A DNA stretch of 64,000 nucleotides, from the NCBI GenBank assembly GCA_034231615.1, contig CM067307.1, positions 7,185,013 through 7,249,012 on the forward strand. Direction: 5' to 3'. Position 1 is the first letter of the stretch. The number at the start of each line of letters is the position of its first letter. The notes beneath the pieces are model-generated. The model was given only the letters and a program-made list of their open reading frames with translations. It was not told the DNA's origin and did no database searches. Below, piece after piece: positions 10,724-51,130 of this stretch. The position numbers and the translations under genes are program-made. The DNA is from Meghimatium bilineatum. Taxonomy: Eukaryota; Mollusca; Gastropoda; Stylommatophora; Philomycidae.

Positions 10724-11480
10724 CCGCGACGCTTTCCAGGACTTGCCTCTGGTTGCCTATAGGAGCGACAAAAATCTGAAGGACATCTTGATCCATAGCC
10801 ACCTTAGGTCTCCTGTTCCCGACCATGTCGTACAGTTCGTTGCTCACGCAGTCGTTGCTAAACACGTCATTATGTGGTTCAGATGCACTCTATTTCATTT
10901 CCAAGGGTCACTTTCTTCATTGATGAGGCCTTTACATGTGAATTCCTTAAAGTAATTTAAGTGATCATTTGTAGACGCCGCGGCAAGCAGTATATCCGGG
11001 AAAGAGGCTTAAGATTCAGCGACCACTTCTGTAACAATCTTCATGCCATCAAGCAGAGAACACCTGCTCCTGTTGTCATGCACGTCAACAGCGATGGTCA
11101 TCGTGGTGTTCTTGATATTCAGGTCACTGCCATCAGATCCTGCACCACCGATGATAGATCTAGGTTCGCTCTAGAAAATCGTCTTATTTTTTAGATGGAT
11201 ACCTTCAAGCAATTTGTACTCAATTTCGACCACTCTATTGTCTAGTTCTTGGTTGGCGTGATCTTTGTCTTTATTCATTTTGTTCCGTCATTTACGTCAT
11301 CTTTTTGTTGGTTTCGTTTCCACCTATATTTACGTTTTTATGTACTTCCTGTTCCTGTGCTTCTGGCACTCACATCCACATTTCGCTTGAACACGATTGT
11401 GTTGTGTGGTCATTTATACTCGTCGTCTTTTGATGTTATGTGCTTATCTTGATAAAGATCTTTTGGTCGAAATATAAATT
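10600..11480 (+). mobile_element. Penelope-like element, RT end and GIY-YIG endonuclease, decayed
   Basis: The plus strand encodes FVLTFHPDNFIVRHILLKHY, then VAYRSDKNLKDILIHSHLR, the segment following the RT domain in Penelope-like elements. At 10961-11194 comes a GIY-YIG-type endonuclease segment: QYIRERGLRFSDHF, VVMHVNSDGHRGVLDIQV and ALENRLIF. The 3' untranslated part (11195-11480) ends with a hammerhead-like motif and is shared with 12549-12935. The element is 5'-truncated and broken in several places. Confidence 0.75.
11448..11475 (+). ncRNA. Hammerhead-like core motif, copy a
   Basis: cttgataaagatcttttggt then cgaaatat. The would-be stem GATC/GGTC pairs (G-C, A-U, U-G, C-G). Hammerhead ribozymes are known in Penelope-like elements, which supports the reading, but the CUGAUGA box carries changes. 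Confidence 0.5.
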
Positions 11481-12177
11481 ATATCCTGTGTTTTGTTGTG
11501 TGTATTATTTCACGTGAGCATCTGACAGTGTTAGTTGTCGTTCAGTAAGACTTCATTACCTGTTTCTAACATAATTCAAACCAGCTTTCGGCATCATGTT
11601 TTTTTGGTTATTCAGGTGTTTCTTGACCGGCGGTAGTAGGTGAAAGGGAAAGGATTATGTAGGTAGGTGATGGCTTTACTTCTCCTTTTTCAACCAGTGG
11701 ACAATGTCCAAGTAGGCTGTATCAGGTCGCATTATCAAAAAGTATTAGAGGTAACTAAGACATAGCGATTTATATGTTAACATGTTGATAAAGGCTTATG
11801 TGGAATATGTTAGTAGGTCTTATATTGGCAATTGGTCATGTGTGAAGTGTGACCTTTACATACCTGGGTCCGCATGACTTTCAGAACATTACCTAATAAG
11901 GCTATACGTCCAGCAAACTTAACCCTTGCCTAAGTTGTCAGTAGCAACCTTGCTAACTGTACTCTAAGCATTGTTGTGCTTTGCAGTGTAAGACATACCA
12001 ACAGAACCAAAACACGCCTTCATACGTGAAGATTTTTTATTATTGTTGTGCTTTTACGTTGGTAACTATTTATATATTTTGTGTCGCATCCCAACACGGA
12101 CCAATGAAATTAATGGTAATATTCGAAAACATGACGTAAAATAGCTTGGTTTGATTTTTCTGTTAAGTCTTAACTCG
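11481..12177. other. No gene recognised
   Basis: Between the two Penelope-like 3' ends. Contains a ctgtatcaggtcgcattatc-type stretch but no domain. Confidence 0.5.
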
Positions 12178-12402
12178 CATTTGGTCGCAGCAATACTAGC
12201 TGGATTCACTGTAGCATAACGTCATTTGGTCGCGGCAATACTAGCTGGATTCACTGTAACTTAACGTCATTTGGTCGCGGCAATTATTGCTGGATCCACT
12301 GTAGCGTAACGTCATTTGGTCGCGGCAATACTAGCTAGATTCACTGTAGCATAACGTCATTTGGTCGCAGCAATACTAGCTGTATTCACTGTAGCGTAAC
12401 GT
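12178..12402. repeat. Minisatellite, 45-bp unit, 5 copies
   Basis: Units start catttggtcgcggcaatact at 12178, 12223, 12268, 12313 and 12358, with a few substitutions. Confidence 0.92.
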
Positions 12403-12548
12403 CACTGCAACCTGGTAACCGTTTTCTACACGAAATGACATAATTCATTCATGAGAATCAATAAAAGGTAAGACAGGTGTAAAACTTTATGAAAATAGTA
12501 CTTTCGCAGGAAACAGAAAATCTACTTATCTTTGTGTTGCGTATCCTC

Positions 12549-12940
12549 AAGCAATTTCTACTCAATTCTGATCCCTCTTTTGTCTAGTTCTCTGTTGGTC
12601 TAGTCTTTGTGTTTCTCCATTTTGTTCCGTCATCTTTTTTGTTCGTTTCGTTTCCACATATATTTACGTTTTATGTACTTCCTTTTCCTATCCTTCTTGC
12701 ATCTCACATACACATTTCGCTCGGACGTGTCGTTATCATTTCTACTCGTCGTCTTTTGATGTTATGTGCTTATCTTGATAAAGGCCTTATTGCCGAAACG
12801 TCGATTATGTCATGTGTATTGTTATTTGTATGATTATATCATGTGTAGTATTGTGTGTATTATTATTTCACATGGGCATCCACCAGTGATAGTGTGCTAG
12901 TCGTCGTTCAGTAAGACTTCATTACCTGTTTACTAAGTAC
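12549..12940 (+). mobile_element. Second Penelope-like 3' end
   Basis: Closely matches 11210-11580: caagcaatttctactcaatt, gttccgtcat, tcgtttccac, tactcgtcgtcttttgatgt, the hammerhead-like motif, and cgttcagtaagacttcatta. It lacks the coding part. The pair could be the 3' ends of two copies or the two terminal repeats of one damaged element. Confidence 0.75.
12774..12803 (+). ncRNA. Hammerhead-like core motif, copy b
   Basis: cttgataaaggccttattgc then cgaaacgtcg. Stem GGC/GCC pairs perfectly and the GAAAC box is intact. Relative to CUGAUGA the first box has substitutions, so cleavage activity is doubtful. Confidence 0.5.
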
Positions 12941-13690
12941 TAATTCCTTCCGGATCATTCTTATTTGTTGTGTCTAGTTCTACCTTTATTCTTTTATATC
13001 ATGAACGAATGCGTTTGCATTTCTGCTATGCCATGGCGGCAACGTTGTCAGTTCCGCCGTTTTCGCCTAATTAGGCCAGTTTTGGACGAGACCGTTTTTA
13101 ACGAGAAAGTTTTATTTTGCAGTGGGTTGCAGTTTCTTGGGATGGCTTTATATATAAGCTATCAGTTTGTTTTTGGGCTATTAAAAGTTACAAATCTTCG
13201 GAATTCGGACTTTCTTTGAGGGAATACTGACTAGAAACTTACGGTATCTTAATGATTACTTGTTATTTTTATCTTAAAGGAATCGGTATTTGTTTGTACT
13301 CGCAGGCAACTTTAGATCAGGAGTTAAAAACGGCAAGAAATTAATCGTTTGTGTCTTTATAACTTATTAACTCGCGGAAATAGAATTTATAGTGCGTATT
13401 AAACTACATGCCATGTTTAAAAATGTGTAACTCCGAAACTATTTTACAGATATGCTTGAACTTTTCAGAAGTATTTTAAAAACGTAGCGACATAATGTTG
13501 AAATATTTGCATCACAATTGAACCAAAAACAATTGTGATAAAAATAATGAAACTGCTGTACACGAAGATTAAGTATGAAATTTGTAATTACAATGAAACC
13601 TGTTTGTGTCTCGATTTCAACTCTGTGCACGATATTAACGTAAATTTGGGTCAAAATTCAAGACTTGTTGGTGGTTAAAGAAACAAGACT
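12941..13690. other. No gene recognised
   Basis: AT-rich. An 84-codon frame at 12965-13219 shows no domain and may be chance. Confidence 0.5.
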
Positions 13691-14515
13691 TAAAGGCCGT
13701 AACCAGAATGTCCTGGCCCCTTAATGGCCGTGCCATTGAAGTAGGTGGTCACAGGATAACCCAAATGGTTTTTGATGCAATACAGATGTTCTTCTTGACA
13801 AAGACAACCTGCAAAGTCACATCAACTCACTATCAAGAATATACACTAAATACAACATGCAGATTAACACATAAAAGGCAGAAACTATGCAGATAACAAG
13901 AACAACAGATCATTTAAACATTCAAATAGAGAACATAATTTTAAAAAAGTCAAAAAAGTTCAAGTACTTAGTAAGTATCTTCACAGAAGACGAACGACTG
14001 GATAGAGAGATAGAAACATGATGTCAAAAGGAAAATTCTGTGATATTTCTGTCACCTCTCCTAATGCACCCAAAAACAGCATGGAAGCTAAGAAACAAAT
14101 GATTTAGAATGCCAGATTTGACAACTGACATCTATACATAAGAGAAAGATCGAAACTTGCGAAATGAAATGTCTAAGGAATGCTATTAGAGTCATCAGAC
14201 TCGACAAAATGAGCAACGAGAACATCAGACAGATAATAGGTATCACATCATGCATCGAATATATAGAGAAACAACAGATAAAATGGTTTGGACATCTAAT
14301 AAGGATGAATGATCAACTTCCCATGAGAGTTTATAACAAGATGGAATAAGGATATAGAGCCATGGCAGACCTAGGAAAAAGTGGATAGACAACATCAAGA
14401 CCATCCTGAATAAACATGATTACACCTGAACCAGAACAACACACCTGACTCTGCAACGCAGACTACATCTCCTTCACAAACCCCTACGCTCAACGGCAAG
14501 TGTTTGGTAGATATG
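13690..14515 (+). mobile_element. LINE fragment, RT C-terminal half
   Basis: Plus strand blocks are KKFKYLVSIFTEDERLDREI (13935-13995), then CLRNAIRVIRLDKMSNENIR, GITSCIEYIEKQQIKWFGHL and a basic tail with ADLGKSG. It shares the RRILG, IRQ and IKWFxH blocks with the fragments at 35960-36345, 41245-41480 and 45720-48215. Interrupted by stops and shifts. Confidence 0.8.
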
Positions 14516-14574
14516 AAAACACCACATGTGATAGACAATAAGATATTCACGGAATCGATCTGCGAGCCTCCTTT

Positions 14575-15083
14575 TTTCCAGTTTCACCTATACATGTCAT
14601 GGCACAGCCCTTACATATGATGGCACAGATGACGTTCTTGGACATACATGTGAAACCCTCTTCAATGGTGATAGTGACTTTAGGGAATATGACAGACGGT
14701 CAGGGTGACATAGGTACAGTTGTAGCATATGTTGCGTTTGCAGCTGATGCCGCGGTGATGATTCGGAACATCATGCTGGTGGATGATTCGGAACATCATG
14801 CTGGTGGATGATTCGGAACATCATGCTGGTGGATGATTCGGAACATCATGCTGGTGATGATTAGGAACATCATGCTGGTGGATGATTCGGAACATCATGC
14901 TGGTGGATGATTCGGAACATCATGCTGGTGGATGATTCGGAACATCATGCTGGTGATGATTAGGAACATCATGCTGGTGATGATTCGGAACATCATGCTG
15001 GTGATGATTAGGAACATCATGCTGGTGATGATTAGGAACATCATGTTGGTGATGATTAGGAACATCATGCTGGTGATGACTCC
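14575..15083. repeat. Minisatellite, mixed 22/25-bp units, about 14 copies
   Basis: From about 14757, units of gatgattcggaacatcatgc plus tggtg or a shorter tggt form, with a second variant gattagg. The 14575-14756 lead-in carries loose earlier copies of catgatggcacag. Confidence 0.88.
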
Positions 15084-15299
15084 GGACCAGTAGGTCCCTG
15101 AGGTTCTTGTCACGTCTGTAAGCATATCTGCGTGTCAGGAAATAAAGTGAATGGGGGGGGGGGTGTTAATTCACCACACCATAGGTCCGTGAAATGCTTG
15201 CTACATTAGGTTAAAAAATGTTAGGGAATAAAAGTGGATGTACTTAGCTCTTTCGCTCCACACCTGCGTGTCATGAAATATAGATGGGCGTACTTAGCT

Positions 15300-15365
15300 C
15301 TGTGGAGCGCGTGGCCTTGCTAGAACGCCGTCCTCAGGTTCCTGAGGTCTCGGGTTCAATCCGCG
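15300..15365 (+). mobile_element. Possible tRNA-derived SINE head
   Basis: gagcgcgtggccttgctaga ... tctcgggttcaatccgcgg resembles a tRNA with a B box (GGGTTCAATCC near 15349-15359). No clear cloverleaf and no 3' body was followed, so this is weak. Confidence 0.35.
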
Positions 15366-15531
15366 GTTGAGACAAGAATTTTTATCTTTCGAAGGTGCAA
15401 TAAAAAATCTTCCTGTACACGTTGTGGCCACAGCTTTTGCAAAGCGGCCTTTATTCCCACAGTCTTAACAACCTCCCTGCACTCCTTAACAGGAAAACAC
15501 GCAGTAATGAAAGTTTTGATGAAAGTATTTA

Positions 15532-15692
15532 GCTCTTTCCCTCCACATCTGCTTGTCATGAAATACAGGTGGGCTCTTTCCCTCCACATCTGCTTGTCAT
15601 GAAATACAGGTGGGCTCTTTCCCTCCACATCTGCTTGTCATGAAATACAGGTGGGTGTACTTAGCTCTTTCCCTCCACACCTGCGTGCTAGG
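15532..15692. repeat. Minisatellite, 41-bp unit, 3-4 copies
   Basis: Units gctctttccctccacatctg plus cttgtcatgaaatacaggtgg at 15532, 15573 and 15614, then a partial. A related unit is at 15241-15305. A G10 tract lies near 15152-15161. Confidence 0.88.
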
Positions 15693-15699
15693 GAATAAA

Positions 15700-16045
15700 G
15701 ATGAAAGTGTTTTTGAGCAGTGACACCCAGTTTGGTCGCACACCAATGACTTCAGCCATCTCCTACGCAGTTCACTTGCTTCGGCTCTGACTTTCTGTAT
15801 CATACTCATTGAGTCACTCTACGCACGGGGACAGACTTGTGACAGTTTTGAGCCTTCGTCACAGCAAACGCCTTCATCGGTTGACTGTTTGATGTTGCGG
15901 CGAAGGCCCCAGTGGCTTCCTGAACTATTCTACCACATAATATGGCGGTAAAGGCCCATACAAACCGTAGTTGGCGGATGACCAATCAATCTCTGTCATC
16001 AACATGTTCTGAGGTGAGTGCATTGACTTCGGTATCAACACTCAT
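15700..16045 (-). mobile_element. RNase H-type LINE fragment
   Basis: Reading down from 16045 on the minus strand: SVDTEVNALTSEHVDDRD, RQLRFVWAFTAILCGRIVQE, ATGAFAATSNSQPMKAFAVT and MSMIQKVRAEASELRRRWLK. These match an RNase H family common in invertebrate LINEs (YTDGSVxRxxRSxWAF, SGAFAxTTSSxTMEV, SDSMSMLRKV). A second copy is at 42735-42910. Broken. Confidence 0.7.
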
Positions 16046-16366
16046 AATTAAGCTCATCGCACTCTCTATTGTGTGTAATAATGGTATTACGAATCTCTTG
16101 AAAAACGCCTGGGACATGTGACCATAATTCACCCGGATTAAAGCCTTCTGGTACTAAAATATGTTTGACAGCATCCTCATCACACCCCATCCACCATATT
16201 CCTCTCTTTTTCCTTTCACGTGAGATAGTACTATATATAGTTGGTGCTCTGTATCAGAACTTACTCTGAGGTATACACGGTCATCGTATTTTTAAAGTAT
16301 TTAGCAATAATGTTTGATGTATGTCTTTTCCATTTTATTTCTCCCTTAGATTCTTCAAGACAAATC
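16046..16366. other. No feature seen
   Basis: Non-coding gap between the RNase H fragment and the 19-mer array. Confidence 0.5.
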
Positions 16367-16800
16367 TGTAATATCTCGTTGGAGAAATAATATCTCGTTT
16401 GAGCAGTAATATCTCGTTGGAGCAGTAATATCTCGCTGGAGCAGCAATATCTAGTTGGAGCAGTAATATCTCGTTGGAGCAGCAATATCTAGTTGGAGCA
16501 GCAATATCTAGTTGGAGCAGCAATATCTCGTTGGAGCAGTAATATCTCGTTGGAGCAGTAATATCTCGTTGGAGCAGTAATATCTCGTTGGAGAAGTAAT
16601 ATCTCGCTGGAGCAGTAATATCTCGCTGGAGCAGTAATATATCGTTGGAGCAGTGATATCTCGTTGGAGAAGTAATATATCGTTGGAGCAGTGATATCTC
16701 GTTGGAGCAGTAATATCTCATTGGAGCAGTAATGATCGTTGGAGCTTTAATATCTCGCTGGAGCAGTAATATCTCGTTGGAGAAGTAATATCTCGTTGCT
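16367..16800. repeat. Minisatellite, 19-bp unit, about 22 copies
   Basis: Unit aatatctcgttggagcagt with variants ctagttg, ctcgctg and gagaag. The minus strand is open across it as repeated EILLLQRDITAPTRYYCSN, a by-product. Confidence 0.93.
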
Positions 16801-17734
16801 GATATCTGTACAATGACAATTTGCTGATTATAGCCTGGTACTTTAGAAGATAAACTGTTCAGTCAACATGAGAGTAGTGCAGCCAAATATGATCTACAAG
16901 TTTGTGCTGAAGTGTTTGAGAATGCTCGTTGCCCACATCGTAAGGTCCAGGTTTCGAAAGATCTGTTTTATCATCGCTGTCACATCTGTTGCGCTGTGGA
17001 TATCCCTGGGACGTGATGTTCATAAGGTAAGCTGACAAGAGTGTGTATAGATTTGAATATAAGTGTGCCAGATGGTTGTAATCCATTGAAATAAAGAATG
17101 GGATAACTCATGCTTTGTTTTGACGTTTGCGCTTGTGTGGAAACTGGGGGCCTGGACTTTAGTTAAGAGCGCAATGAATAGAGTTCAAAGAAGAGCGCCA
17201 CTGTCTTATTTCCAGATATATCTTATAAATCACCTAAGGAAAATTGGGGGATGGACTTAAAACCTGTCTTCTAGAAATAAAAAATTATTGTCATATCTTG
17301 TCTCGATTTCTTACTTCTGTCTTCTATCAAATAATCTTTAGTGGTTGAACAAAAGATGCAGACAAACCGACATAACACTTTTTCCGTTCTGTGACAGACT
17401 CCTAGTTGATAGAGAATACTAGATGTACCATTGTAACATACAGTGTGTTATAGAAGAAGAAGCAGCGAAACGGATAGGCTGACTCTTCGAATACGGATGA
17501 ACAAGTCCAATTAGATACACCGGGAGGTAACAAACAATTTAGCATTCGTAACGGCAATGTAGATAAAACACTAGATACATAATGTCATCAGAACGTAGCG
17601 GCTTGCAGACCTTGCAATTTACTATCAGCTAGTTAACTGGGGATCCAAGATAATGGAAACCATTGGAACGACAAAATTATAGAGTAGTGACCGATTTAAT
17701 TGCGGTCAGGAAACTTGATGGCAAGTCGCCATAT
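16801..17734. other. No gene recognised
   Basis: The minus-strand frame at 16859-17086 has no recognisable motif. No repeat array present. Confidence 0.5.
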
Positions 17735-17935
17735 ATCACAGATAATTAATCAATCAAGTGCCATGCCGAATGGCGCTGTCCATTCATGTTTCTCCACGAC
17801 TCTCTGTCTCTTGTGTTGTCATTAAGCACGGTTGGTAAACTTGTACTGTGCCACAATACTAGTCCATCTATCAACTTCTCTCTTTGTCGTCCTCTCTCTC
17901 TTCTCCCCTTGATCTTTCCAAGTAAATTCAAGAAA
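17735..17935 (-). mobile_element. LINE 3' end fragment
   Basis: The minus strand reads NLLGKIKGRRERGRQREKLI, DGLVLWHSTSLPTVLNDNTR and DRESWRNMNGQRHSAWHLID and then stops. The order GKIKGRRGRGRQR, DNTRDRxxWR, AHxAWHL is the C-terminus of a LINE RT protein. A short ttaattaatc tail follows on the minus strand. Confidence 0.8.
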
Positions 17936-21889: not shown

Positions 21890-23028
21890 CCAACTCTCAT
21901 CATCATCAAGTGCCGTCTCCGCAATAAAGGTTGGCTGCAACAGGTCTTCAACATCTCCTGTTTCTTGTGTTGGTAGTTCACACTGCTAGACTGTAATCTG
22001 TCCATCTTGTGATGTTACTCTCCCACTTGTATCTCTTTTCTACCTCTTGCTCGCTTCCCTTTGACTTTACCCTCAAGTAAGGTCTTCAACAAGATGTCAT
22101 GCCTTTTAATGTGTCAAAAATATTTTATTTGCCTGATCTTTATTTCTCTAGAAAGAAATGCTCTTTCTTCCTATTAAGTGTTTTAGCACCTCTTTATTTG
22201 TTTTCTTCTCTTTCCATATTCTCTCTATTCTGCTATACATCCACATCTCAAAGGCATCAATTCTGTCTTCTAATTTTTTGTTTATTGTCCATGTTTCTCA
22301 GCCATACATTAATATAGAATAGATGTAGCATTTTATTATTCTCATTTTTAACTTGTTTGTAATTTGTTTAGATATTAATAATTTCCTCATGTCATTGAAG
22401 GTACTTTTAGCCATTCCTATTGTCCTTTTAACTTCTGTTTCACATCTGCCATCATTTGTGACTATGTGTCCAAGATATTGATAATGTTTTACTTGTTGTA
22501 GTTTCTCTCCCTGTATGTTTATGCTTAGCTCTTGTTCTTCTGTGTCCTTGCTGATTATCATTGTTTTTGTTTTTTTGGATATTTATATGGTCCATATACA
22601 TTACTTGATTTATTGACTTGATCTATTAGTCTTTGTAGTTCATGTTCATTTTCTGCTAAAAGAACAGTGTCATCTGCATATCTAAGGTGGTAAGTTATTT
22701 TCCCATTGATCTTGAGTCCTGGTATTTCTTCTATATTTTTAAAGATATTCACTGTGCAAATATTAAATAGACTTGGTGATAAAATGCATCCTTGTCTTAC
22801 CCCTCTTCTTATTTCTATGTATGGTGAGTAGCTGTTTTCACACCTTATTGATGCAGTATGATTCCAGTATATATTTCTAATTTGTCTGATGTCTTTTCCA
22901 TCTATGCCTATTTCTTGAAGACATTGGATTAATTTTTCATGTTGGACTCTGTCAAAGGCCTTGATGTAGTCTATGAAGCTAATGTAGATACATTCTTGGA
23001 CATATTTATCACCAGTCGGATACACCAA
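21890..23028 (-). mobile_element. RTE-like LINE, RT catalytic core to 3' end
   Basis: Reading from 23028 down: FIDYIKAFDRVQHEKLIQCL (RT domain A/B), RRGVRQGCILSPSLFN, LRYADDTVLLAENEHELQ with the catalytic YADD near 22670, then YQYLGHIVTNDGRCETEVKR and IIKCYIYSILMYG, and, past a shift, the basic C-terminal block with RYKWESNITRWTD near 22040-22000. It ends by a catcatcatc run near 21900. The 156-codon piece at 22558-23028 is the best preserved RT in the window. Confidence 0.9.
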
Positions 23029-23039
23029 CTCTAAGACAT

Positions 23040-23557
23040 CTTAGAATCGGGGCTACAGGCAGATCTAATTTGTATGATTTCCAAAGAGATCCAGTGGATA
23101 CCGTCACACTGTAACATTGAAGGGAATGAAGTTGCATATAGACTGGCCAAAGAAGGAGGGAATTTACCTCAAGAAGACTGTCTGGTCAGTTATGAAGACC
23201 ATCATTAAAGGCAACTATAACAAAAAGTGGAAAGAAGACCACCCCAAATATAATCCAGATGACGGGTATTACTAACTATCCAGAAGAGACCAGGTTATCT
23301 TGCTGCGCCTCAGAACTGGTCACAACAAAATGAGACATCACCTGTACACCAAATTCAAACAGGTACAACTGGCCTTTGTCATTGAAGCCTTGCGAATATG
23401 ACAGCAGAACATATCCTACAAGAATGTCCCTAGTATGCAGACCTGAGAAATAAGACATGACCCACTCCAATCAGCGTTGAACAGAAACTGTATGTCACAG
23501 CGGAAACCCTGAAACAGACAGCAGTCTATATCATAGAATATAACCTGACTGAGTAAT
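23040..23557 (+). mobile_element. RNase H-type LINE 3' fragment
   Basis: The plus strand reads IQWIPSHCNIEGNEVAYRLA (23087-23147), the last RNase H motif, then VILLRLRTGHNKMRHHLYTK (23298-23360) and a decayed knuckle. It meets the minus-strand RTE fragment tail to tail at about 23030. The matching blocks at 8.3-8.7 kb belong to the same group. Confidence 0.8.
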
Positions 23558-28136: not shown

Positions 28137-28958
28137 GCTGGACGATATTCTCAGTGGAGGCATCGACCAATCAATGAGCGGAAGACATACGCAAAACACT
28201 TTCTTCGTCCACGTGATATCAATATTTACATGTACTCTGCAATTGCCAACTACCATCTTCCCGTTAGTGGCGCCATCAATATTGTCATTACCACTCTAGA
28301 TGCTTCCACATCATCTTTAGATTGTTGTGTGATACTAGACAACAGTACTGTGTTTACTACTAGATCGCAAGAATATTTTTTCTATCACACACTGGACGTT
28401 CCAATATTGTCCAGAATTACGGAGTACATGCACCCACAGATCTACAAGGCGCGTCAGTACGCCTGTGTCGTTCCTGAAATTGGTCAGCACGCTAGTCATG
28501 TTACTTTAACATCCTCATCTTGTTCTTCAGATATCCACGACTATATTCCAGTCCTCTACCCTCAACGGGTACCAGGAGGGCTTGCTATATGTGCAAAAAT
28601 AGCACACAGTGGTGGCCTTGACCCTGAAAAGGTTATAGAGTGGTTTGAACTCCAAAGAATTTTAGGAGTAGATAAAGTATTAATATACGATTTGGGAAAT
28701 CCCGAAAATTTGAACCGAGTTTTTCGATACTACCAAGAAATTGGAATGCTTGACTTGCAGCCTTACGAGTTGCCCGGGGAGCCCGCTAATAGATCTTTGA
28801 TGGAGAAAGTAAAAAATACCTTACAATTTCACAATGATGAGTCAATGTCCATTATTGAATGTCGCCAGAGAATGGCTGGGTACTCTTTCGTTATGAGTCA
28901 CGATCTGGACGAGTTCATTATTCCCAGGAAGAATGTTGGACTAAAACCATTCTTTAAG
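28137..28958 (+). CDS. Glycosyltransferase family 92 (DUF23) protein, first visible exon (274 codons)
   Basis: GT92 enzymes are type II Golgi membrane proteins; the studied nematode member GALT-1 adds galactose to core fucose of N-glycans. The exon opens after a tgatag acceptor (start of exon 28137, phase 0) and ends at AAG before gtaaat. Visible blocks: a beta-sandwich-like N-terminal part (RDINIYMYSAIANYHLPVSG), the fold start LAICAKIAHSGGLDPEKVIE, WFELQRILGVDKVLIYDLGN and, at residues 256-260, DLDEF (28902-28916), the acidic motif that stands for DxD in this family. The preceding IIECRQRMAGYSFVMSHDLD fits the usual DC...W.DxDEF order. Earlier exon(s) with the transmembrane anchor were not found. 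Joined with the next two exons it gives 411 residues to the stop, so it is most of a usual 450-550-residue protein. No breaks. Substrate is unknown. Confidence 0.9.
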
Positions 28959-29759
28959 GTAAATTGTATGCTTTTAATACCTCTGTAATGTCTCTGTAAT
29001 GTTGTTTTGTAAAAGAAGTAACATTGACACAGTTTTGTTATCTTCTATATATGGTCAAAATGACCCAGATGTTATGCTGAAGTCGGAGATGACAGATTAA
29101 AAGATACAGTCTGTAAATCATAGCACGGCGCGTTTTGTTGTCCGGACAGTATCGTGCGGATCTGCAGGAATTTGAGAACTAATGCAGAAGAAGAACTTTA
29201 ATGGTTTATTAATAATGTTTACATTTTGTCTGTCATTTTGTAACCAAAATAAAAAAGCTGGTAACACACAGTCAAGTTTATAAACGAGACAAACTTCAGA
29301 TATATGCACGTTTCTTCCAGGCGAACGAAAAAAGATGAAAATTAAATAATGTTTACATTGTGTCTATGAAGTGCAATACTATCAATGCACATGCAAATTT
29401 GAGAGCTCAAATTTTATATTGAATCGATTTTTATTTATGGTCTTGAAGCATGGTTGGTAAACAAAACAGTTCAAAGTGATCTGTGGTACTGACATATTGT
29501 TTGTGGTAAGAATTAGGCAAATTTCACCAACACCTAATAAAATTAGACGTCCTTGAGTAAATAGACAATTTATAGAAAACAGAAGCAAACAGCAAATACG
29601 TGTATGGCATGTGGTGAGAAAAACAAAATGTGAACATTTAATAAGAGTTGAAAAGATCTACTATCAAGGACATCACGACTAGTAAAAGAAAGAAGACTTC
29701 TGTTCCCCATGGTGTCTAGCGGCATATGTGGATATGACAAGACAAGACGCAAAGATCAA

Positions 29760-36345: not shown

Positions 36346-36440
36346 AGATAGATAGATCATTTTTTTACCCTTGTTATAGTTTCCGTATAAGAATACATTA
36401 ATAATACGAAAATGACAGTTTTAGTTCGAAAAGCGGACTG

Positions 36441-36472
36441 AATCGACGTTTCGGACACAATGATTTCTCAAG
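36441..36472 (-). ncRNA. Hammerhead-like core motif, copy f
   Basis: On the minus strand cttgagaaatcattgtgtcc then gaaacgtcgatt. GAAACGTCG is intact; the first box and stem are weak. Confidence 0.3.
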
Positions 36473-36719
36473 GAAAATACAAGAAAGAGAAGGACACACA
36501 AAAAAGAATACAAATTAGAGCTAAAATAATATATATATTATTGAGTATTACTTTCCGTCCATTTTTTTGCATTGTCTACTTGATATCAACATTATCTTCT
36601 TTTATAACATTCAACTGCATGCCATGTTTATGTACATTTTCACCCTATTTCATTAGAATATTTATAAATTGTTTTCAACTGTTAGTTTTGGAAACCTTAA
36701 TCATTTTTTTCATTCCTTA
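36473..36719. other. No gene; AT-rich
   Basis: An 86-codon open frame here is hydrophobic by base composition and has no motif. Confidence 0.5.
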
Positions 36720-38450: not shown

Positions 38451-39280
38451 CTGCTCGGTTCTTGCAACACCACTCTTCACTCTCATATCTTGCAATCTAG
38501 CCATAGACACGGAAGAAGACATACATCTTACATATCCTGTCAACTTGTACCAACTCCATGATTGCATTACAAAACAATTCAGCACGATTAAGTCAGATAC
38601 CACTAGCCACTGTGGCTATTTTAGCAAGTCTATTTCTCCATCGTTTCTCCTAACATCCTCGTGGCCAGGTACAAAAGTAAAAGTAGCGAACTAAATCAAT
38701 GGTTCTCAAAGTGAGCCATATGAGTCTTCTCTCCCCCCCCCCCACATTGGGGCCACAGAAACATAATGGTATTTAAGTTCAGTGTCTCAGACAATTTTTG
38801 ATTGAGGGTTTTTCGGATCCACCAAGAGGGAGGACGCACTTTCTCCCATCTCTTCTGGTCACACTATTTCTGTAATTCTCTAAACGTATACATTTGTCTC
38901 TTTCAACACTCTCTTCATCGTTGTGTAGTGTATCCATGCCCTCCCTAATTAATTCGACCCTATCTTTTATTATCACTGTGTCATCCACTATCCCGAACTC
39001 GCCAACTCATCAGTTCTTTCGTTGCCTCTGACTCCCGCATGCAATGAACATATCTAGCTAAATAGATAAATAGATTCATAAAAGACTACTTTAAGTGTTG
39101 TTGAGAAGAGTGGCCTAGTCAGCTCTTATTATGAGATTAAACTTCATTGTGGGGAAACAACCCGATACTGGAAATGCGACGGCTGGGGAAACACGTGGAA
39201 AATGTAAAAATAAACTGAAATAAGTACAAGTGTTATCAATATTGGTAAATAAAACATACTAGCAACGAGGCACAGTGATT
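38451..39280. other. No gene seen
   Basis: Possibly a little more of the LINE up to about 38600. A C10-type tract is at 38731-38740. Confidence 0.45.
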
Positions 39281-39310
39281 GCGACGTTTCGACTAAAAGC
39301 CTTAATCAGG
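39281..39310 (-). ncRNA. Hammerhead-like core motif, copy c
   Basis: On the minus strand cctgattaaggcttttagtc then gaaacgtcgc. First box CUGAUUA has one change from CUGAUGA, stem GGC/GUC pairs, GAAAC intact. One of the two best matches in the window. Confidence 0.5.
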
Positions 39311-39943
39311 ACGAAAGGCAATAAACAGGTATTATGCTTTACTATCTTGTGTGACATGCTCCGATTATCTGTTTGAATCACTGAGCTTGTTTCTTCATCG
39401 CCAAGAGAAAAAAACGGATCTCACTGTTTCTATTCCTTTTACGTATATATTAATTTATAGCTAACAATTTTAATGCTCTTTTTTTACTGATATTCATTGT
39501 ATCAATGCTCCTATTAAAGATCACAATAACGGTCATTGAAGCCATTTGATAATTTTATATCATGTTTATAATGTCCTAAATTGAATTTTTATATCATGTT
39601 TATAATGTGCTAGTTTGATGACTTGTTTTATTTTTATCATGTTATATTTTGATGTGTGTTATATTTTGATGTTGTATGTTATATTTTGATGTTGTGTGTT
39701 GTATGTAGCTGATACATTAGATGTTCAGTATTAGGTCTGTTGATTATCCTCTTCGCACACCAGACACGAAGCTGATACATTGAATCGATGGAATGTAAAC
39801 ATGCGTTTCATTCTGGTTTTCCATTTTAGTTCATTCTGGTTTTAGTTCAAGGCATTGGTAGTTACATTAATCCGTGACCGAACGTCTGTATATGAGACCT
39901 GTCTACTAAAACGTAAACATGAACTAGTTTATTACTGTCGATC
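39311..39943. other. No gene; short loose repeat of tatattttgatgttgtgtgt at 39645-39705
   Basis: Otherwise AT-rich with two related tttttatatcatgtttataatg copies at 39552-39610. Confidence 0.6.
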
Positions 39944-43337: not shown

Positions 43338-43374
43338 GGCTATGTTCCCTGCATTATCTATTCAGTGCAATGAT

Positions 43375-43545: not shown

Positions 43546-44130
43546 AAATATGTCAGAACTCCCTCTGAAGTATACACGGGCATGTCACACATCACATCTG
43601 TGAGATATGCTTGAAAAATCAAGGAGAACCATCATAGCCATACAAGGCGTGTTGGTTGTTCACGTTGTATCTTCTTATTTCAATAAGGATTATCCTCTCC
43701 TGTTGTAATGTATCCAATAATGCACCATGCACTTGTTACTGTTATCGGCTTGTCGTCTTTCTTTTCGCGATATACCCCTTTATGCCTTGCAATGTCAGGG
43801 GCTGGAGAGTTCTCTGTAGACGAACTGTTTGTTTGCTTAAAATAATTTATGTTTTCGTAGGTGGTTTTTTTTCTCTATAATCCATCTTTTGCATGGTCTG
43901 CCCCTGGCTTTGTATTCATATCGGCTTTTAGCATTGCGAATTTATCAAACTAGCCTGCTTGTGGAAATAGGAGATAAGAGGCAAATAGGGAAAAAAAGAA
44001 TTAGAATTCAAAAGAAGATTTCGTATAGAAGAATTTAAAAGGAGGGTAGATTTATCTGGTGCATTAGATAGATTTACATGGTATAAAATTTTACTAAAAA
44101 CAGTTTTTTTTTTCGGTAATAGCATATTTG
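43546..44130. other. No gene recognised
   Basis: AT-rich; the short frames at 43656-43880 and 43928-44125 have no motif. Confidence 0.5.
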
Positions 44131-44187
44131 TGTAACCATGACACCGCCTCTAAACCCCTTCCACAATTCACGGGGAACAACTCTTCA

Positions 44188-45080
44188 TTAATCAAAATTT
44201 TGTTGAAAGTGAAAGTTACTTCCTCTTGTTAAAACATTTTTAACAAAAATATAGAGCAATTTGGTTTCTTGGAGATTTCCATAATAAATTACGTCAACAA
44301 ATATAAGTAGTGGGGGGGGGGGGGCACGGCATAACACCATGCCGTGTCGCAGAATCGTGATGGCACGATGTAGCATATCTAGTGTGTTCATGTAGCCGAT
44401 AGCATTGATTGTGACACTGGGCTCCTTAAAATCCAACAATACGAGTCCTTCAAAGTTGGTCAAAGGGGGAATTTTTTTATGTGAGTTTGTTGCTCTTATG
44501 TGCCCCATGATGTTTCCATTGCACCCTAAATGTTTTCCTGCATGGCTCAAAGTGGCGAAAACCCCAATTCATTTCATGCCATTATTTGCTACAGAAATGC
44601 ATCATCCTCTGATGGTAACGCTGCAAATAGTTGAAACTCTACCGCATTCGCTCTTCTTTATGATGTTCAGTAAATATCCGTGGTACCCACCTAGAACACA
44701 TCTCCTGCTACAATTTGATAATTCAAATTGAACAATCATTAGAACTATTCCGAATGACACAGAGCACTGATTACATAGCAAACATAAACTCCGTGAGGCC
44801 AACATATATTGATGCATCAATTTTGATGATGGCTTCTGTCACAACAACTGCCTGATCCTGCAGCGGAAAATCATTTGTTATTTTTCGCTCTTCCCGCAAC
44901 AATCTCACCCATTCCTTCAATGTTGTCTTCGAAACACATTCTCCATCATACACTACCTCCATTATTTGATAAATGTTGGTTGGTCGACATTCTTCGGTTG
45001 CAAGAAACCGAATCACTACTCGATGGCACAATTTGGACGGATTCGTTATCATAAGAGCCATGTTGAAGTCTGCCTGCAAA
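44188..45080 (-). mobile_element. Mariner-type DNA transposon, decayed transposase
   Basis: From 45075 down on the minus strand: the N-terminal helix-turn-helix RVVIRFLATEECRPTNIYQI, MEVVYDGECVSKTTLKEWVR, LLREERKITNDFPLQ; in another frame KLQQEMCSRWVPRIFTEHHK (second HTH/linker, compare CARWVPRxLTxEHK); then HFEPCRKTFRVQWKHHG (compare HFEPESKRQSxQWKH); then VLLDFKEPSVTINAIGYMNT, LDMLHRAITILRHGMVL. So nearly the whole transposase order is present but spread over frames. The DD-D residues are not all legible. Terminal inverted repeats were not identified. A G12 tract lies at about 44313. Confidence 0.85.
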
Positions 45081-45715
45081 TCACACTATGCGTACGTAGA
45101 GAATGACCACATGACCATTTGTTCATCGACAAATACTTATATCAATGTGGTGTCCATGGCTCTCTGAGACAAAAAACGTTCCCGACCCCCTGATCTAAGA
45201 GAATTGTAACGTAACTTTATTCAACTTAACCCGGAAGTGAACTTTGACTGTTTACAATTAAGACCTTGTGACCTACGTACCAGGCACTCAATTCCAAATT
45301 TAAGCGTTCTTCTACTCTTTTATTCTAGTTAGCAATGCTACTAGCTTATGCCAATTTGAGTTCTTACCCGGGGACCCGAACTTTGATCTCCAGCTTATAA
45401 ATGTGCCCTACATTGTGAACGCAAACCGAACACATTCAATTCTGTTATGTTTGTCTATCTGAAAAGACCGTTGGTAAGTAGAGAACCAGCTGCTTTGCTT
45501 GTAATTCTGTGACTATCATCCGCGATTATAAATTATCATTTACTAATTTGAATATACCCTATCATCATCACTGAAATTAAATTAAAATTGCTAATAAAAG
45601 TCGTTAGCCTACACATTCACAAATCAATACTACAATACAAATAAGTAGTTGGTTTGGTTGGTTGGTTAGCGATTTCTGATCATTTCAGAACAATTGCAAG
45701 AATATAATAATATTA
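45081..45715. other. No gene recognised
   Basis: Includes an AT-rich palindromic stretch at about 45698-45742 (aatattataatattattaat). Confidence 0.5.
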
Positions 45716-45719
45716 TAAT

Positions 45720-46159
45720 ATTATTAATATTATTATATATAGTAGACTCCACATATGACAACATGTCAAAAATTCAACATGAAGATCAATATTGAAAAGA
45801 CCGAAATAATGGCAATAGCAAAGAAAGAAAGAAATATCACTATCTCCATCAATAATAAACACCTTAAACTAAACAGGTAGATGAGTTCACGTACTCATGA
45901 AGTATTATATCGAGGGAAGCGAAAACCAGTAAAGAGATACAAAATAGATGCAATAAAACATACCAGATCCTAAGACAGATGAAACGTATTTTCAAGAACA
46001 AAAATGTAAACATAGACACTAAAGTTGCATTATACAAGACTATTATTATTCCATCACTATGCTACCAGTGCCAAACCTGGACAATGACAGCACAAGACAA
46101 AAGAAAAATAGTGACAGCAGAAATGACATGTCTATGAAAAATACTCAGAGTGTCATTAA
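45720..46159 (+). mobile_element. LINE fragment, left part, interrupted by a piggyBac-like insertion
   Basis: Plus strand reads MTTCQKFNMKINIEKTEIMA, then in another frame REAKTSKEIQNRCNKTYQIL, KNVNIDTKVALYKTIIIPSL and TAQDKRKIVTAEMTCL. It stops at agagtgtcaTTAA (46156-46159); the matching LINE at 36005-36045 continues as agagtgtcattaagaaatag. The continuation here is found at 47925. Confidence 0.85.
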
Positions 46160-47928
46160 CCTTTAGCAAGCCAGATTAAAAAATACGAAACGTCTCGCTG
46201 CCACCAGATTCTTTTTTTGAAAATTTGCGTTATTGATGGTGACTGTTTTGAAAATGTGATAATTTTTTGGTTGTTAACCTTTAGCAAGCCAGATTAAAAA
46301 ATACGAAACGTCTCCCTGCCACCGGATTCTTTTTTGAAAATTTTCATTATTGATGGTGACTGTTTTGAAAATGTGATAATTTTTTGGTTGTTAGAGATAT
46401 TTAAATAATATTTGCACATATAAATAAAGAATTGAATTATGCATATATTGGTGTAATTTATGTACGTGTGTGTGTGATACCAGACGTATGAGAAAGTGGT
46501 AAAGACGTTTTTCACAAAAAACATATATTTTATAACAAATAAAGAGGGAAAAAATAAGGAAAAAAAATAACTTACCTTACATATCGAATTCCTTGGCAAC
46601 ACTGTCAACTAAATCACGTAAATCTGTTGTATTTATGTTCTTTCACTGCGAAATTATCAAAATATAGCCGGGGGAACTGTATAAAACATGTAGATTTGCA
46701 GTAAAATCGTTCTCTGAGCTTAGGCCTAGAGTTATTTTTTCTGCCACTTCAAAATATTCGATATCAAACGTACAAGTCCCCAAACCAGCACGGCATTCTG
46801 TATATTCACTGCTGTGAAACTAAATAACCTAATAATCCATGATTCAATCCACGATTCAATGTTATTTTATTCGAAATACAATGAAATAAAGGTCTGTAAA
46901 ACCAATCCATCATCATGGCATCGTACCGGTGTACAGATGTGGTCAGATTAATTGCTCTTAAACTTTTACGAATAGCCAGCCATTCTCAAAAACGATCATG
47001 TCGGAAGTGGGGGATGTACCGGCTTCGATTGCGCATGTCCCCAGCTATGTGCACGGACTGTGGTACGTGTAAATCTCACGATAATCTCGCTGGGTGGGAC
47101 GGCCCGCCATCAGCGCGCGCGGCCATTTTGTTTTCGGCGGCTGGATATCATATCGGCTTGGTGAAGGTTAAAGATATTTTAATAATATTTGCACATATAA
47201 ATAAAGAATTGAATTCTGCATATATTGGTGTAATTTATGTACGTGTGTGGGTGTGATACCAGACGTATGAGAAAGTGGTAAAGACGTTTTTCACAAAAAA
47301 CATATATTTTATAACAAAGAGGGAAAAAATTAGTAAAATAATAACTTACCTTACTTATCGAATTCCTTGGCAACACTGTAAACTAAATCACATGCAAATC
47401 TGTTGTATTTATGTTCTTTCATTGCAAAATTATCAAAATATTGCCAGGGGAACTGTATAAAACTAGTAGATTTGCAGTAAAATCGTTCTTTGATCTTAGG
47501 CCTAGAGTTATTTTTGGTGCCACTTCAACATATTCTATATCAAACATGTACACGTCCCCAAACCGCATCACATTCTGTATATTCACTGCTGTGAAACTAA
47601 ATAATTCATGATTCAAGCCACGATTCAATGTTATTTAATCTAAATACGATGAAAGAAAGGTCTATAAAACCGATCCACCATCATGGCATCGTACTGGTGT
47701 GTAGATGTGGTCAGATTAATTGCTATTACATTTGTACTTTCTAACTTGACATCTTTACAACGATCATGTCGGAAGGAGAGAATGTCCCGGCTTCGATTGC
47801 GCATGCCCTGAACTATATACAGGCTGTGGTAGGCCTATTTCGCACAATGTATCATTGAGCGAGTGCACCCGACAACAGTAAACAGCCGCCATCTTGATCA
47901 CGCTTAACCAAAGTGCAGTGAAGATTAA
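46156..47928. mobile_element. piggyBac-like non-autonomous element with TTAA target duplication and internal tandem duplications
   Basis: TTAA at 46156-46159, then terminus cctttagcaagcc (46160-46172). The left end (118 bp) is duplicated: a second TTAA-cctttagcaagcc starts at 46274. A right terminus ggcttggtgaagg then TTAA is at 47155-47171; its reverse complement matches the left end at 11 of 13. A second internal copy, lacking the left end, follows (47172-47924) and ends gcagtgaaga-TTAA (47925-47928), where the host LINE resumes. The two bodies (46391-47154 and 47172-47900) match closely over most of their length. No transposase is encoded. Confidence 0.8.
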
Positions 47929-48215
47929 GAGATAGAATTAGAAATGATAACATCAGACAGATAACCAAAAAATACCAGTATTGAAAGTGGTTTTCACACG
48001 CTTCCAGACTACCGACAGTTAGCATGCCACAAATGGCCATGGCTGATAGACATAACGGTTATAAAGCCAGAGGCAGACCATGTAAAAGATGGATCACATA
48101 ATTCAAAGAAGCCACAGGAACAAGCTTAAAAACAGCACACAAGAAGGCCATCTCCAGAGAACTCTTCCACCCCTGACGCCGCAAGGGACACAGCGTATAG
48201 ATAGATAGATAGAAT
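47929..48215 (+). mobile_element. LINE fragment, right part, resumed after the insertion
   Basis: gagatagaattagaaatgat continues the LINE interrupted at 46159. Then cggttataaagccagaggca, aacagcacacaagaaggcca, tctccagagaactcttccac and a (taga)n tail at 48198-48215, the same ending as 36345. Confidence 0.88.
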
Positions 48216-48379
48216 TAAATTATATATTTATATTATGAAGTGACTCTACTTAAAACTAATATCAACTGAATTGAGCATTTTCAATGTTGGAAGGGATAAA
48301 CAAGCTGTGCTTTTTAGTCCATGCAAGTACCAAGTTGTTTCATCTGAGCTTATACAGGGGGCCGGTACTTAAGTTTTCA

Positions 48380-48600
48380 ATCAGGCCAGTATCGCTGAAG
48401 ATGGATGTGTCGGGCCATTGACACAAATGAAATGGCAACACAGCACATTTCTATTCTCTGGACTACATCCTGCTGGAAATCTAGTAGGACCACTGTTTTG
48501 CTACAAGAGAGATCCAGCAGGAGTTGAATGAATGCTGAAGTTTTGCTACAAGAGAGATCCAGCGGGAGTTGAATGAATGCTGAAGAAGAATCAGAGCAGT
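48380..48600 (+). repeat. Interspersed repeat family F, copy 2
   Basis: Plus orientation: gtgtcgggccattgacacaa, ctctggactacatcctgctg, ctagtaggaccactgttttg, gatccagcaggagttgaatg. The last 47 bases (ttttgctacaagagagatcc...) are duplicated in tandem at the 3' end. Confidence 0.85.
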
Positions 48601-48690
48601 AAAAAGTCCACTACTGGTTTAAACATAAATAGGTCAAAGTGAATTATCAATGGTGTGCATGATATGGTAGCAACAAAAGAGAAGAACAAA

Positions 48691-48721
48691 TGACGTTTCG
48701 ATTTAAAAAACCTTCATCTGG
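48691..48721 (-). ncRNA. Hammerhead-like core motif, copy d
   Basis: On the minus strand ccagatgaaggttttttaaa then tcgaaacgtca. First box AGAUGA has one change, stem GGUUU/AAAUC pairs over five bases, GAAAC intact. Confidence 0.5.
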
Positions 48722-48936
48722 ATGAAAAACAAGGAACAAATAGTACTGAACCTATGTGAGAAGACGTAAGGATAGAAGAAAGAAAAAAAGGAGAAATAAA
48801 ATAGCCAGGAGGAGAGTGATGGGTAAAATATGAGGTTAGGAAGATTGTTAAAGAGCTGCAAATAAATATGGAGGGAAATTAATTAACTAGATGTGAAGAA
48901 GTTAACTGGCTTTGCTTCTAAAAAATCTTATGGGCA

Positions 48937-49325
48937 GAGCAGACGTACTCGATGCTTTAAGAGAGTGCACAATTTGATGTCAATGAGCATGAGTCAGTAT
49001 TGAGAAAGTGTGAATTGGGAGTAAGGATCTGCGTAGCACTGAGAGAAGATCTCATCAAAATTTCAAGAGTAAGGATCTGCGTAGCACTGAGAGAAAATCT
49101 GATAAAAATTGCAAAAGCTGAGAGAAAATCTGATAAAAATTGCAAAAGCTGAGAGAAAATCTGATAAAAATTGCAAAAGAATGCTCAACCAACACAAATC
49201 AGGAGCCTACAGCCGCTACACCCTGAGAGATTTACTGAAGCAGAGATTTGAGCACATATGGATATGTCCGATGTGCAAAGACGATAATCTAAACAACCTA
49301 ACATATGAAGGGAGACATATGGGAT
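48937..49325 (+). repeat. Unclassified coding repeat family X, copy 3, with internal tandem expansion
   Basis: Encodes GRADVLDALREC, then LGVRICVALRE repeated with variants (RICVALREDLIKI, RICVALRENLIKIAK), then KRMLNQHKSGAYSRYTLRDL, LKQRFEHIWICPMCKDDN. It aligns with copy 1 over its whole length and ends in the same CPxC-x-DD pair. The expansion at about 49030-49170 is a minisatellite (about 30-45 bp unit) inside the coding part. Flanked by similar sequences at 48815-48910 and 49345-49445. Confidence 0.65.
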
Positions 49326-49329
49326 GATG

Positions 49330-49857
49330 AGGAGACAAACATGGCAGGGAGGAGAGTGATAGAAAAATTATGAAGTTAGTGAGTTGTTTAAGTATGGTAG
49401 AGAAATGAACTTGGAGAGGAATTTTTTAACCTGTCATAGAAGAGGAGAAAAAGAGGGAAGATCACTTCAAAGAAGGAAAGAAATGCTTGGAGGGATAACG
49501 CACCTGAAACTGGTAATTACACACTTAATCTCTTAGCATGGGCATGGCTGAATCAGACATATATCACAGACCTCAGGACCAGTTTGTCCTGTTCAGAAAA
49601 TGATGCTTTAGTGAGCTTAATTGAACAGACATATTTATTGCCCAGCTGCTGCTTTAATTACCTGTCTCCTGTCATTGATGGAATGCTCTAGAAAATAAAA
49701 CCCTTGCAGGGCAAACTTATTAAAACTTTCTACTATTATGTGTATGTATGTATATATATTGAGTGCATGCAGTATTTTGAACAAAAAACTGCAAAATTCA
49801 TTCTCTCTGTGGATTACTTTTTATTGCACATTTAACGTAATACAGTACGGATATACG
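49330..49857. other. No gene; imperfect direct repeat flanking family X copy 3
   Basis: 49345-49445 (gggaggagagtgatagaaaa...) resembles 48815-48910 (aggaggagagtgatgggtaa...). The remainder is AT-rich. Confidence 0.5.
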
Positions 49858-50052
49858 GTTGTAAAGTAAAGATAACCCCTATCATTTATTAATGCTGTAG
49901 GTATGTGAGGTGTTAACAATCTCACATTTCAGTGGCTCTGTTATATGAGGGTGGCAGCCATCGCCTTCCTTGCAGTATTTACTTCCCGGATTAATCCGGT
50001 ACCCAATTGAGACTGGGTAGATCTGGGAGCCGTTGTGATCTGAAAAACATTG
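49858..50052 (-). mobile_element. tRNA-derived SINE, 5'-truncated copy
   Basis: Reverse complement contains gatcacaacggctcccagat, gggtaccggattaatccggg, aagtaaatactgcaaggaag and ends taataaatgataggggttat then ctttactttac. Same body and tail as 60461-60655 and 61421-61680; the tRNA-like head is missing. Confidence 0.85.
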
Positions 50053-50312
50053 ATTGGAAGATATAATTTAACTTGTTATAATATGATTGAAATTCTATAT
50101 TAGCCATATTTAGATCATAAGCAAATTAATGTTTTGTAGACTGCACTAACTTGTTCAATGTGATGATAATTTGTCAATTTATATCGCAGCCAAAAATTAT
50201 TCAGTCCAAAATGAACAAGTACATCATTAACAACATTGTAACACTCATTGGTTGGAAGATATAGGTTTAACTTGTTATAATATGATTGAAATCATACATT
50301 AGCATAGGTGAC
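50048..50312. repeat. Dispersed direct repeat, about 65 bp, two copies
   Basis: attgattggaagatataatt ... gttataatatgattgaaatt at 50048-50110 recurs at 50247-50312. Confidence 0.8.
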
Positions 50313-50680
50313 AACTAGTACGGATTTTCCGTATTGATACAGATTTTACGCCACACCCCCCCACACCCCCCCCCCCGAACCTCCCACATTTTTTAATTTT
50401 TTTTTTACTTTTCATTTAATGTTAATTTTCCTAGTAATTATTACTAATGCAGAGTTTTTTTGTTTTTTCATATGCACATATTGACTGCGCACAAAAAAAT
50501 TGGAGTTTATTTCAGGGATTTTTTTAGCGGTGCTAAATACAGACTTGGGGTGCAAAGGGCACCGCACTGTTCTCAGCGGACCTAGGGTTAGCAGAAAATC
50601 ACGTAAAACCGTAGTTGTAACCTTTGATAACAGTTACCATGTTGTTCCGACAGGCTGACGTTGTGCTTGAACTAGTTAAC
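50313..50680. other. No gene; C-rich tract
   Basis: Cytosine runs at 50347-50375 (ccccccccc type). Otherwise nothing recognised. Confidence 0.55.
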
Positions 50681-50689
50681 GGGCACGGC

Positions 50690-50875
50690 GTGGGTGGGTG
50701 GAACAACAAAGAAACCTGGCACAAGGGCCAGAGTTGTGCCCTGATGTCAGTGTCTGTTTCAGTGGCGTTAGACTCGAAACACCATTGAGTTGGATGGCTG
50801 CTGGAACAGAGGGCGGAGCACTTATGGGAATGCCCCACGTGCTGTGAGGCCAGTTTCTAATCAAGAATCAAGAAC
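50690..50875 (+). mobile_element. RNase H-type LINE 3' end
   Basis: Contains cagagggcggagcacttatg then ggaatgcccc, reading AEHLWECP-like, and ends aatcaagaatcaagaacaac, the same ending as 6290-6400. Confidence 0.55.
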
Positions 50876-51085
50876 AACAAACTAAATCACATAAAAATAT
50901 ATCTACTAATTCACACAACAAACTAAATCACATAAAATGTATCTACCAATTCACGCAACAAACTAAAACACATAAAAATATATCTACCAATTTACACAAC
51001 AACTAAATCACATAAAAATATACCAGGTAGCTACTAATTCACACAACAAACTAAATCACATAAAAATATAGTTAACAGTTCACAA
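50876..51085. repeat. Minisatellite, about 41-bp unit, 5 copies, following the LINE 3' end
   Basis: Unit caacaaactaaatcacataa plus aaatatatctactaattcaca. The first copy begins directly at the LINE terminus (caagaacaacaaac). Confidence 0.88.
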
Positions 51086-51100
51086 AACAGACTGAACAAA

Positions 51101-51130
51101 CATTTTGACAATAAGGTCTTTATCAAGAGA
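51101..51130 (-). ncRNA. Hammerhead-like core motif, copy g
   Basis: On the minus strand tctcttgataaagaccttat then tgtcaaaatg. Stem GAC/GUC pairs as in copies a and b, but the GAAA box is altered. Confidence 0.3.

Follow-up and report, generated by a model that had tools for sequence, protein, structure and literature searches.

Minimal hammerhead-like motifs in four repeat families of Meghimatium bilineatum and their Penelope-like setting

Hammerheads without helix III have been described in the pseudo-long terminal repeats (pLTRs) of Penelope-like elements (PLEs) (PMC7761336, PMC6155905, PMC7229834; these and the other articles cited are represented here by excerpts of their text), and their role in PLE transposition has been called unknown (PMC7761336). 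Here we examine a motif of this type in a 64,000-nucleotide stretch of Meghimatium bilineatum DNA (GCA_034231615.1, contig CM067307.1, positions 7,185,013 to 7,249,012), which we call the window, and in the 1.6-Gb genome containing it. We read the motif, with a probability of roughly 0.83, as a minimal type I hammerhead of PLEs which lies in the pLTR, between the end of the open reading frame (ORF) and the next unit, and we infer that it cleaves. Its copies are real marks left behind by four families of repeats, and at least two of these families are PLEs. They are of a kind already described in the articles above, so the "hidden structured-RNA family" of an initial annotation of the window is not an apt name.

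Two other described systems help to place the motif. RNA of the Anolis carolinensis element PAc cleaves when protein is present, at a cut placed 26 bp after the start codon, and either C3G or G8C abolishes cleavage, while the double change partly restores it (PMC11167929). As we read it from the printed template, the PAc motif consists of CUGAGGA, U, stem II, GAAACGUC and a CCU/AGG stem I, which agrees with the stated cut. Natural hammerheads in which U3-A8 replaces C3-G8 by covariation are active in vitro, and the excerpt reporting them also lists the consensus core positions (PMC3088659).

Motif copies and repeat families

The initial annotation had placed the motif at seven sites, and direct reading of the sequence finds all seven at the coordinates given (Table 1). 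Each matches the end of one of four repeat families, with empty controls, and this includes the five sites that had been proposed to mark the ends of further elements. An eighth copy, at 52093, was absent from that annotation. A strict definition of the motif (TGATDA, a stem of at least 3 pairs, CGAAA[CT]G) is satisfied by 2 of the 7 sites, against a mean of 0.02 and a maximum of 1 in 300 order-1 shuffles. Judged by their sequence, the window copies are relics of these four families.

In hammerhead numbering, the core has 3-UUGAUAA-9 or CUGAUGA as its box, followed by a single additional A, stem II, G12 A13 A14, ACGU and H17. The layout is therefore a short stem I, a CUGANGA-type box, an extra base, a short stem II (3-5 pairs in the copies tabled) and GAA-ACGU-C without loop III. 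Helix III is not closed within one molecule, and ACGU is self-complementary. The copy at 12774 is the best preserved: every core position is intact, with U3-A8 replacing C3-G8, and no other window copy has all core positions plus stems I and II. At 11448, helix III has changed from ACGU to AUAU, which retains self-complementarity, and the first pair of stem I is broken. G8 is gone at 39281, leaving C3 with U8 and no pair there, and stem II is not clear at 36441. The consensus U4 G5 A6 N7 A9 G12 A13 A14 A15 U16 H17 is satisfied in the window by the copies at 12774, 11448, 36441 and 39281.

The initial annotation had taken substitutions in the first box as a sign that most copies are inactive. 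U3-A8 is a published active variation (PMC3088659), so TTGATAA alone is no sign of inactivity and that argument falls; yet five of the eight copies lack another core base (G8 at 39281, U4 at 48691 and 7425, G12 at 51101 and 52093).

Families were defined from 30 loci, cut around the first 30 of 69 strict genome matches and grouped by their flanks. Family A mostly has CTGATGA followed by GTCGTCTGTC, and the flank marks of families B, C and D are GTCGATTCTG, GTCGATTTGTG and GTCGATTATG, respectively. We built a profile hidden Markov model (HMM) for each family; no window sequence went into the training of A, B and C, and that of D includes the copies at 11448 and 12774. E-values were computed for the window alone, and at E<=0.01 there were 0 matches in the reversed window and in 5 shuffled windows. 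The match at 48691 is mostly core, so its flanks contribute little.

A covariance model (CM; 35 positions, built from 30 genome copies) recovers all eight window copies, three of them only at E 0.07-4.5, and omits stem II at 36441. Its ranking is 12772, 48689, 39280, 11449, 36442, 52093, 51103, 11785 and 7421, with the last four at E 0.07-4.5; 11785 is none of the eight motif copies. In the covariance search that had been proposed as a check, the Rfam hammerhead models had no match in the window. An RF02276 search of the genome found nothing, and its controls were silent as well.

The motif is abundant in the genome. We counted 69 matches to the pattern YTGATRAAGNCN7GNCGAAACGTCG, against 0 to its reversed form, and 3,552 exact matches (control 0) to TTGATAAAGNCCN4GGNYGAAACGTYG, the family D form. 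With positions 7 and 8 freed and C, G or T at position 3, the family D form rises to 4,142 matches (control 0), making it the most abundant type. This pattern fixes positions 4-6 of the box, and among 100 matches listed of the 4,142, the box changes are to A or C at position 7 and to G at positions 8 and 3, twice at each of the latter. U3-A8 is the usual state of this type, including near-identical copies beside open reverse transcriptase (RT) frames.

The motif resembles that of PAc / Poseidon in its CUGANGA box, the extra base before stem II, GAAACGUC right after stem II and the absence of loop III (PMC11167929). PAc also has a 3-bp stem I, as families B-D do here (family A does not), and its motif lies in a region common to tandem units. 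By this match in layout, a PLE hammerhead that has been tested also has the extra base and an ACGU without a loop. There are differences: PAc has C3-G8, whereas families B-D have U3-A8; the extra base is U in PAc and A here; and the PAc motif overlaps the start codon, whereas at locus L051 (described below) the motif stands 193 bp after the ORF. Going by description only, the minimal type I hammerheads reported from PLEs and Terminons share the lack of helix III and the pLTR location (PMC7761336, PMC7229834, PMC6155905), as well as tandem copies, thousands of copies per genome and proposed dimers. Animal retrozymes likewise carry a type I hammerhead inside a retrotransposon, but theirs are small tandem monomers with canonical hammerheads (PMC7229834). 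No title on a U3-A8 form in PLEs was found in a literature search which did not contain the main PLE hammerhead papers and thus is a poor guide to the published record.

Penelope-like element context

The motif stands beside an ORF with RT and GIY-YIG regions in family D and, more weakly, in family B. In the window, the motifs at 11448 and 12774 lie 206 and 190 bp downstream of remnants of this ORF, and the Penelope-like setting claimed for these two copies is borne out, with a weak second remnant (E 0.1). The first remnant carries stops, 3 of them within 10832-11242.

L051 shows the arrangement with an open frame. It is a unit in a tandem array on contig C2, where RT matches have a spacing of ~3.3 kb (exactly 3304 bp in many cases) and many carry an open frame of 687 codons. 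In the unit that we read, the motif is in sense past the ORF end and ahead of the next unit's ORF, and an in-frame stop immediately precedes the frame start. RVT_1 is matched at E 2.6e-4 (locus L042) and 0.019 (a piece of L051) and GIY-YIG at E 0.0016 and 0.0068. None of these matches reaches the Pfam cut-offs, but the order, RT and then a C-terminal GIY-YIG, is that of PLEs. An NCBIfam scan gave one weak match, to a group I intron endonuclease (E 0.011), PDB searches found no relative, and the predicted structure of the ORF has a predicted local distance difference test score (pLDDT) of 29, too low to use.

Loci can also be chosen by RT alone. From 150 scored RT matches we sampled the first 72 rows at intervals of ten (2, 12, ..., 72) and read 201 bases at the place where the motif was expected; this sample was selected independently of the motif but spans few lineages. 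In six of the eight loci the motif is present, in sense and as far from the RT match as expected; L057 has no motif at the expected place, and at L052 the sequence is still inside the ORF. Four of the six copies are near-identical (TTGAAAA) and two are TTGATAA, one of the latter in the L051 array. All six, and L051, satisfy the consensus core given above.

Coding sequence is scarcer around the other families. In family B, 2 of 5 ten-kb loci have ORF sequence in sense orientation upstream of the motif. For family A, PLE coding sequence occurs in 1 of 11 ten-kb loci, in the opposite orientation; of two ten-kb loci of family C, one has it in antisense and in the other an ORF follows 1.4 kb downstream. 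Homology within family A extends no more than ~525 bp upstream of the motif, except in the duplicated pair L028/L029. These observations would suit an alternative in which families A and C are non-autonomous (retrozyme-like or short interspersed element-like), have a hammerhead of the PLE type and depend on PLE proteins for their movement. However, 5' truncation accounts for the missing coding sequence equally well, and a tandem array of the retrozyme type (period up to 500) crosses the motif in none of the 30 three-kb loci. We therefore regard non-autonomy of A and C as a tentative possibility, and a rather unlikely one.

Two side observations concern the arrangement and decay of these elements. 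Neighbouring family D ends less than 5 kb apart on contig C1 are divergent (-/+) in 14 of 14 pairs among 92 places listed, and a second, overlapping set (100 places listed, also contig C1) gives 8 of 8. Head-to-head inverted PLE copies and tandem units have been described (PMC3846280), and initiation at both target nicks could explain head-to-head pairs. Tandem repeats have also expanded inside PLE coding remnants, both at 14754-15079 of the window and at 3063-4100 of locus L035, where a 48-bp ORF piece is repeated ~twenty times.

Table 1. Motif copies, repeat ends and ORF remnants in the window (ORF residues are those of L051).
Feature	Position	Strand	Evidence	Remarks
Motif copy, family D	12774..12803	+	CM E 7e-11	Stem I AUC/GAU, UUGAUAA, stem II GGC/GCC, GAA-ACGU-C
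Motif copy, family D	11448..11475	+	CM E 0.008	Box, stem II and core bases intact (H17 = A)
Motif copy, family A	39281..39310	-	HMM E 4e-36, CM E 5e-7	Position 8 changed to U
Motif copy, family A-like	48691..48721	-	HMM E 1.3e-6, CM E 4e-7	U4 changed to A (CAGAUGA)
Motif copy, family B	36441..36472	-	HMM E 8e-6, CM E 0.015	Core bases intact (UUGAGAA, GAAACGUC)
Motif copy, family D	51101..51130	-	HMM E 3e-7, CM E 0.15	G12 changed to A
Motif copy, family A	7425..7453	-	HMM E 8e-4, CM E 4.5	Strongly decayed (CGGAGGA, U4 changed to G; GAAAUGUC)
Motif copy, family C	52093..52126	+	HMM 52094-52194 E 6e-12, CM E 0.07	U3-G8, G12 changed to A
Family A match	39143-39327	-	HMM E 4e-36
Family A match	48687-48742	-	HMM E 1.3e-6
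Family A match	7362-7461	-	HMM E 8e-4
Family B match	36412-36513	-	HMM E 8e-6
Family D match	51056-51140	-	HMM E 3e-7
Repeat end (pLTR), family D	11330..11629	+	HMM, own training copy	Around 11448
Repeat end (pLTR), family D	12665..12973	+	HMM, own training copy	Around 12774
Family A tail without motif	6610..6756	+	HMM E 5e-28, model 158-308	Starts 3 model positions past the predicted cleavage site
PLE ORF remnant including GIY-YIG region	10558..11242	+	tblastn E 9e-82	Residues 459-687
Possible second ORF-end remnant	12516..12584	+	tblastn, weak, E 0.1	Residues 665-687
PLE ORF fragment	14559..15123	-	tblastn pieces, best E 1.6e-11	Residues 525-615, split by tandem repeat

Folding, the predicted cut and other explanations

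Helix III could form between two motifs. Where one RNA contains two copies of the pLTR, their self-complementary ACGU stretches could pair with each other as a shared helix III, and the 5' flank of each motif would pair with the 3' flank of the other as stem I. The RNA would be cut after GUC or GUU, perhaps aided by the element's own protein as in Anolis. Because two ACGU copies could pair in this way, multimeric transcripts from tandem units could be cut into unit-length pieces.

Among 24 distinct rows (from a pattern fixing several positions, with families that are not independent), 83.9% of 192 cells are paired, against 80.8% in shuffles, of which 12/500 reach the observed value; slid versions give 13-46%. 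Two-sided changes occupy 16 cells, which 8/500 shuffles equal. There is no excess in the pairs with a two-sided change (3 of 8, equalled by 217/500 shuffles) or in the further pair types (9, reached by 413/500). In the same rows, positions 3-8 are UA in 13, CG in 9, UG in 1 and other in 1, i.e., a standard pair in 23/24, where the search pattern limits position 3 to Y and position 8 to R. By family, this pair is C-G in A and U-A in B, C and D. The third stem I pair is GC in 6 rows, AU in 5, GU in 5 and other in 8, and all three pairs of stem I form in 3/5 loci of family B, 3/6 of C and 2/2 of D. The extra A after A9 is present in 30/30 rows, where the pattern fixes it, and in the RT-chosen copies.

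The initial annotation had also claimed compensating stem changes. Stem II does form in most copies, but the shuffle counts above and the re-dealing of its halves (see below) speak against strong compensation: the changes follow family lines, and what looks compensating in stem II is mostly G-U tolerance. One stem II pair (A/G versus T/C) has an odds ratio of 3.4 (p 2e-4); since the copies are related and the two samples came from different patterns, we do not rely on it.

Several results weigh against a cleaving PLE hammerhead. Rfam scans of the window, of L009 (a copy of family A), of four repeat ends of family D and of 39240-39350 found no hammerhead, and Pfam found no RT match in the whole L051 ORF or in fragments L011, L007 and L027. 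Family A forms all three stem I pairs in 0/17 loci (1/17 with the register slid by one), and in family C the slid register gives a full stem I in 3/6 loci, the same as the proposed one. The extra base would break a strict rule, used in PMC3088659, by which A9 is followed by stem II with neither a mispair nor an additional base in between. When the 3' halves of stem II were re-dealt among 72 distinct cores (drawn from 100 matches listed of 191), the observed mean pairing was reached by 759/2000 trials, because the arms pair through G-U anyway. Core identity between two RT-chosen pLTRs (20/28) shows no clear excess over flank identity (93/159), in an alignment where the aligner shifted the stem.

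The cut itself fares similarly, and these results belong on the same side of the balance. Insertions at 6610 of the window, L044 and L035 begin 0-9 bases past the predicted cut; other 5'-truncated copies begin elsewhere. Among the contig C1 matches listed, there was no excess of insertions starting at the cut, a comparison of low power: 7/48 copies lack the 6 bases preceding the cut, against 2/15 at a place 6 bases on. RNAcofold of predicted dimers gave mostly folds other than the hammerhead and so offers no support. For PAc, too, RNA ends at the cut were not found, according to the excerpt (PMC11167929).

Some of these points would favour a conserved signal of the retrotransposon end (e.g., for protein binding or the start of reverse transcription) that is only hammerhead-like and cuts no RNA. 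Rfam has no match, family A is nearly without stem I, ends at the cut are not seen, and insertion of PAc in vitro is unchanged by hammerhead mutants in the work excerpted (PMC11167929). Set against this, the families vary where a hammerhead allows variation—at position 7, the 3-8 pair, the stems, loop II and H17, partly as imposed by the search patterns—and their layout equals that of PAc, which does cleave. We therefore think a non-cleaving signal improbable. Chance look-alikes of T-rich and A-rich composition can be set aside as extremely improbable, for although the strict definition fits only 2/7 sites and the copies at 7425 and 51101 are weak in the covariance model, 69 and 4,142 exact matches stand against 0 for reversed patterns and the HMM controls are empty; chance may account for 7425 alone.

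A further reading is quite speculative, and we consider it unlikely as it stands. Young, abundant PLE lineages may have settled on U3-A8 and a loopless ACGU helix III, and A, B and C, short repeat families that otherwise differ, may share the hammerhead as a common handle for one protein machinery. Such a hammerhead could not work unless two copies of the pLTR came together, within one RNA or from two RNAs, and it would then sense whether a tandem template is complete. Thousands of copies, tandem arrays and near-identical U3-A8 copies offer material for probing the role of the hammerhead in PLE transposition. For annotation, reading a short motif by eye brought to light several old families of retrotransposons that the Rfam scan of this one window missed.

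Other features of the window

The window is rich in tandem repeats, with 89 rows from a repeat finder. The longest are at 57006-59218, with 115 copies of a 20-bp unit, and at 3184-4556, with 42 copies of a 33-bp unit. Two 117-bp tandem units at 46156-46393 contain CGAAACGTCTC and have no hammerhead box. Other retroelement coding fragments are found at 22558-23040(-) (RVT_1, E 6.6e-24) and 7963-8325(+) (RNase H, E 1.2e-7), and 28137-28988(+) is a possible glycosyltransferase family 92 exon (E 1.2e-11).

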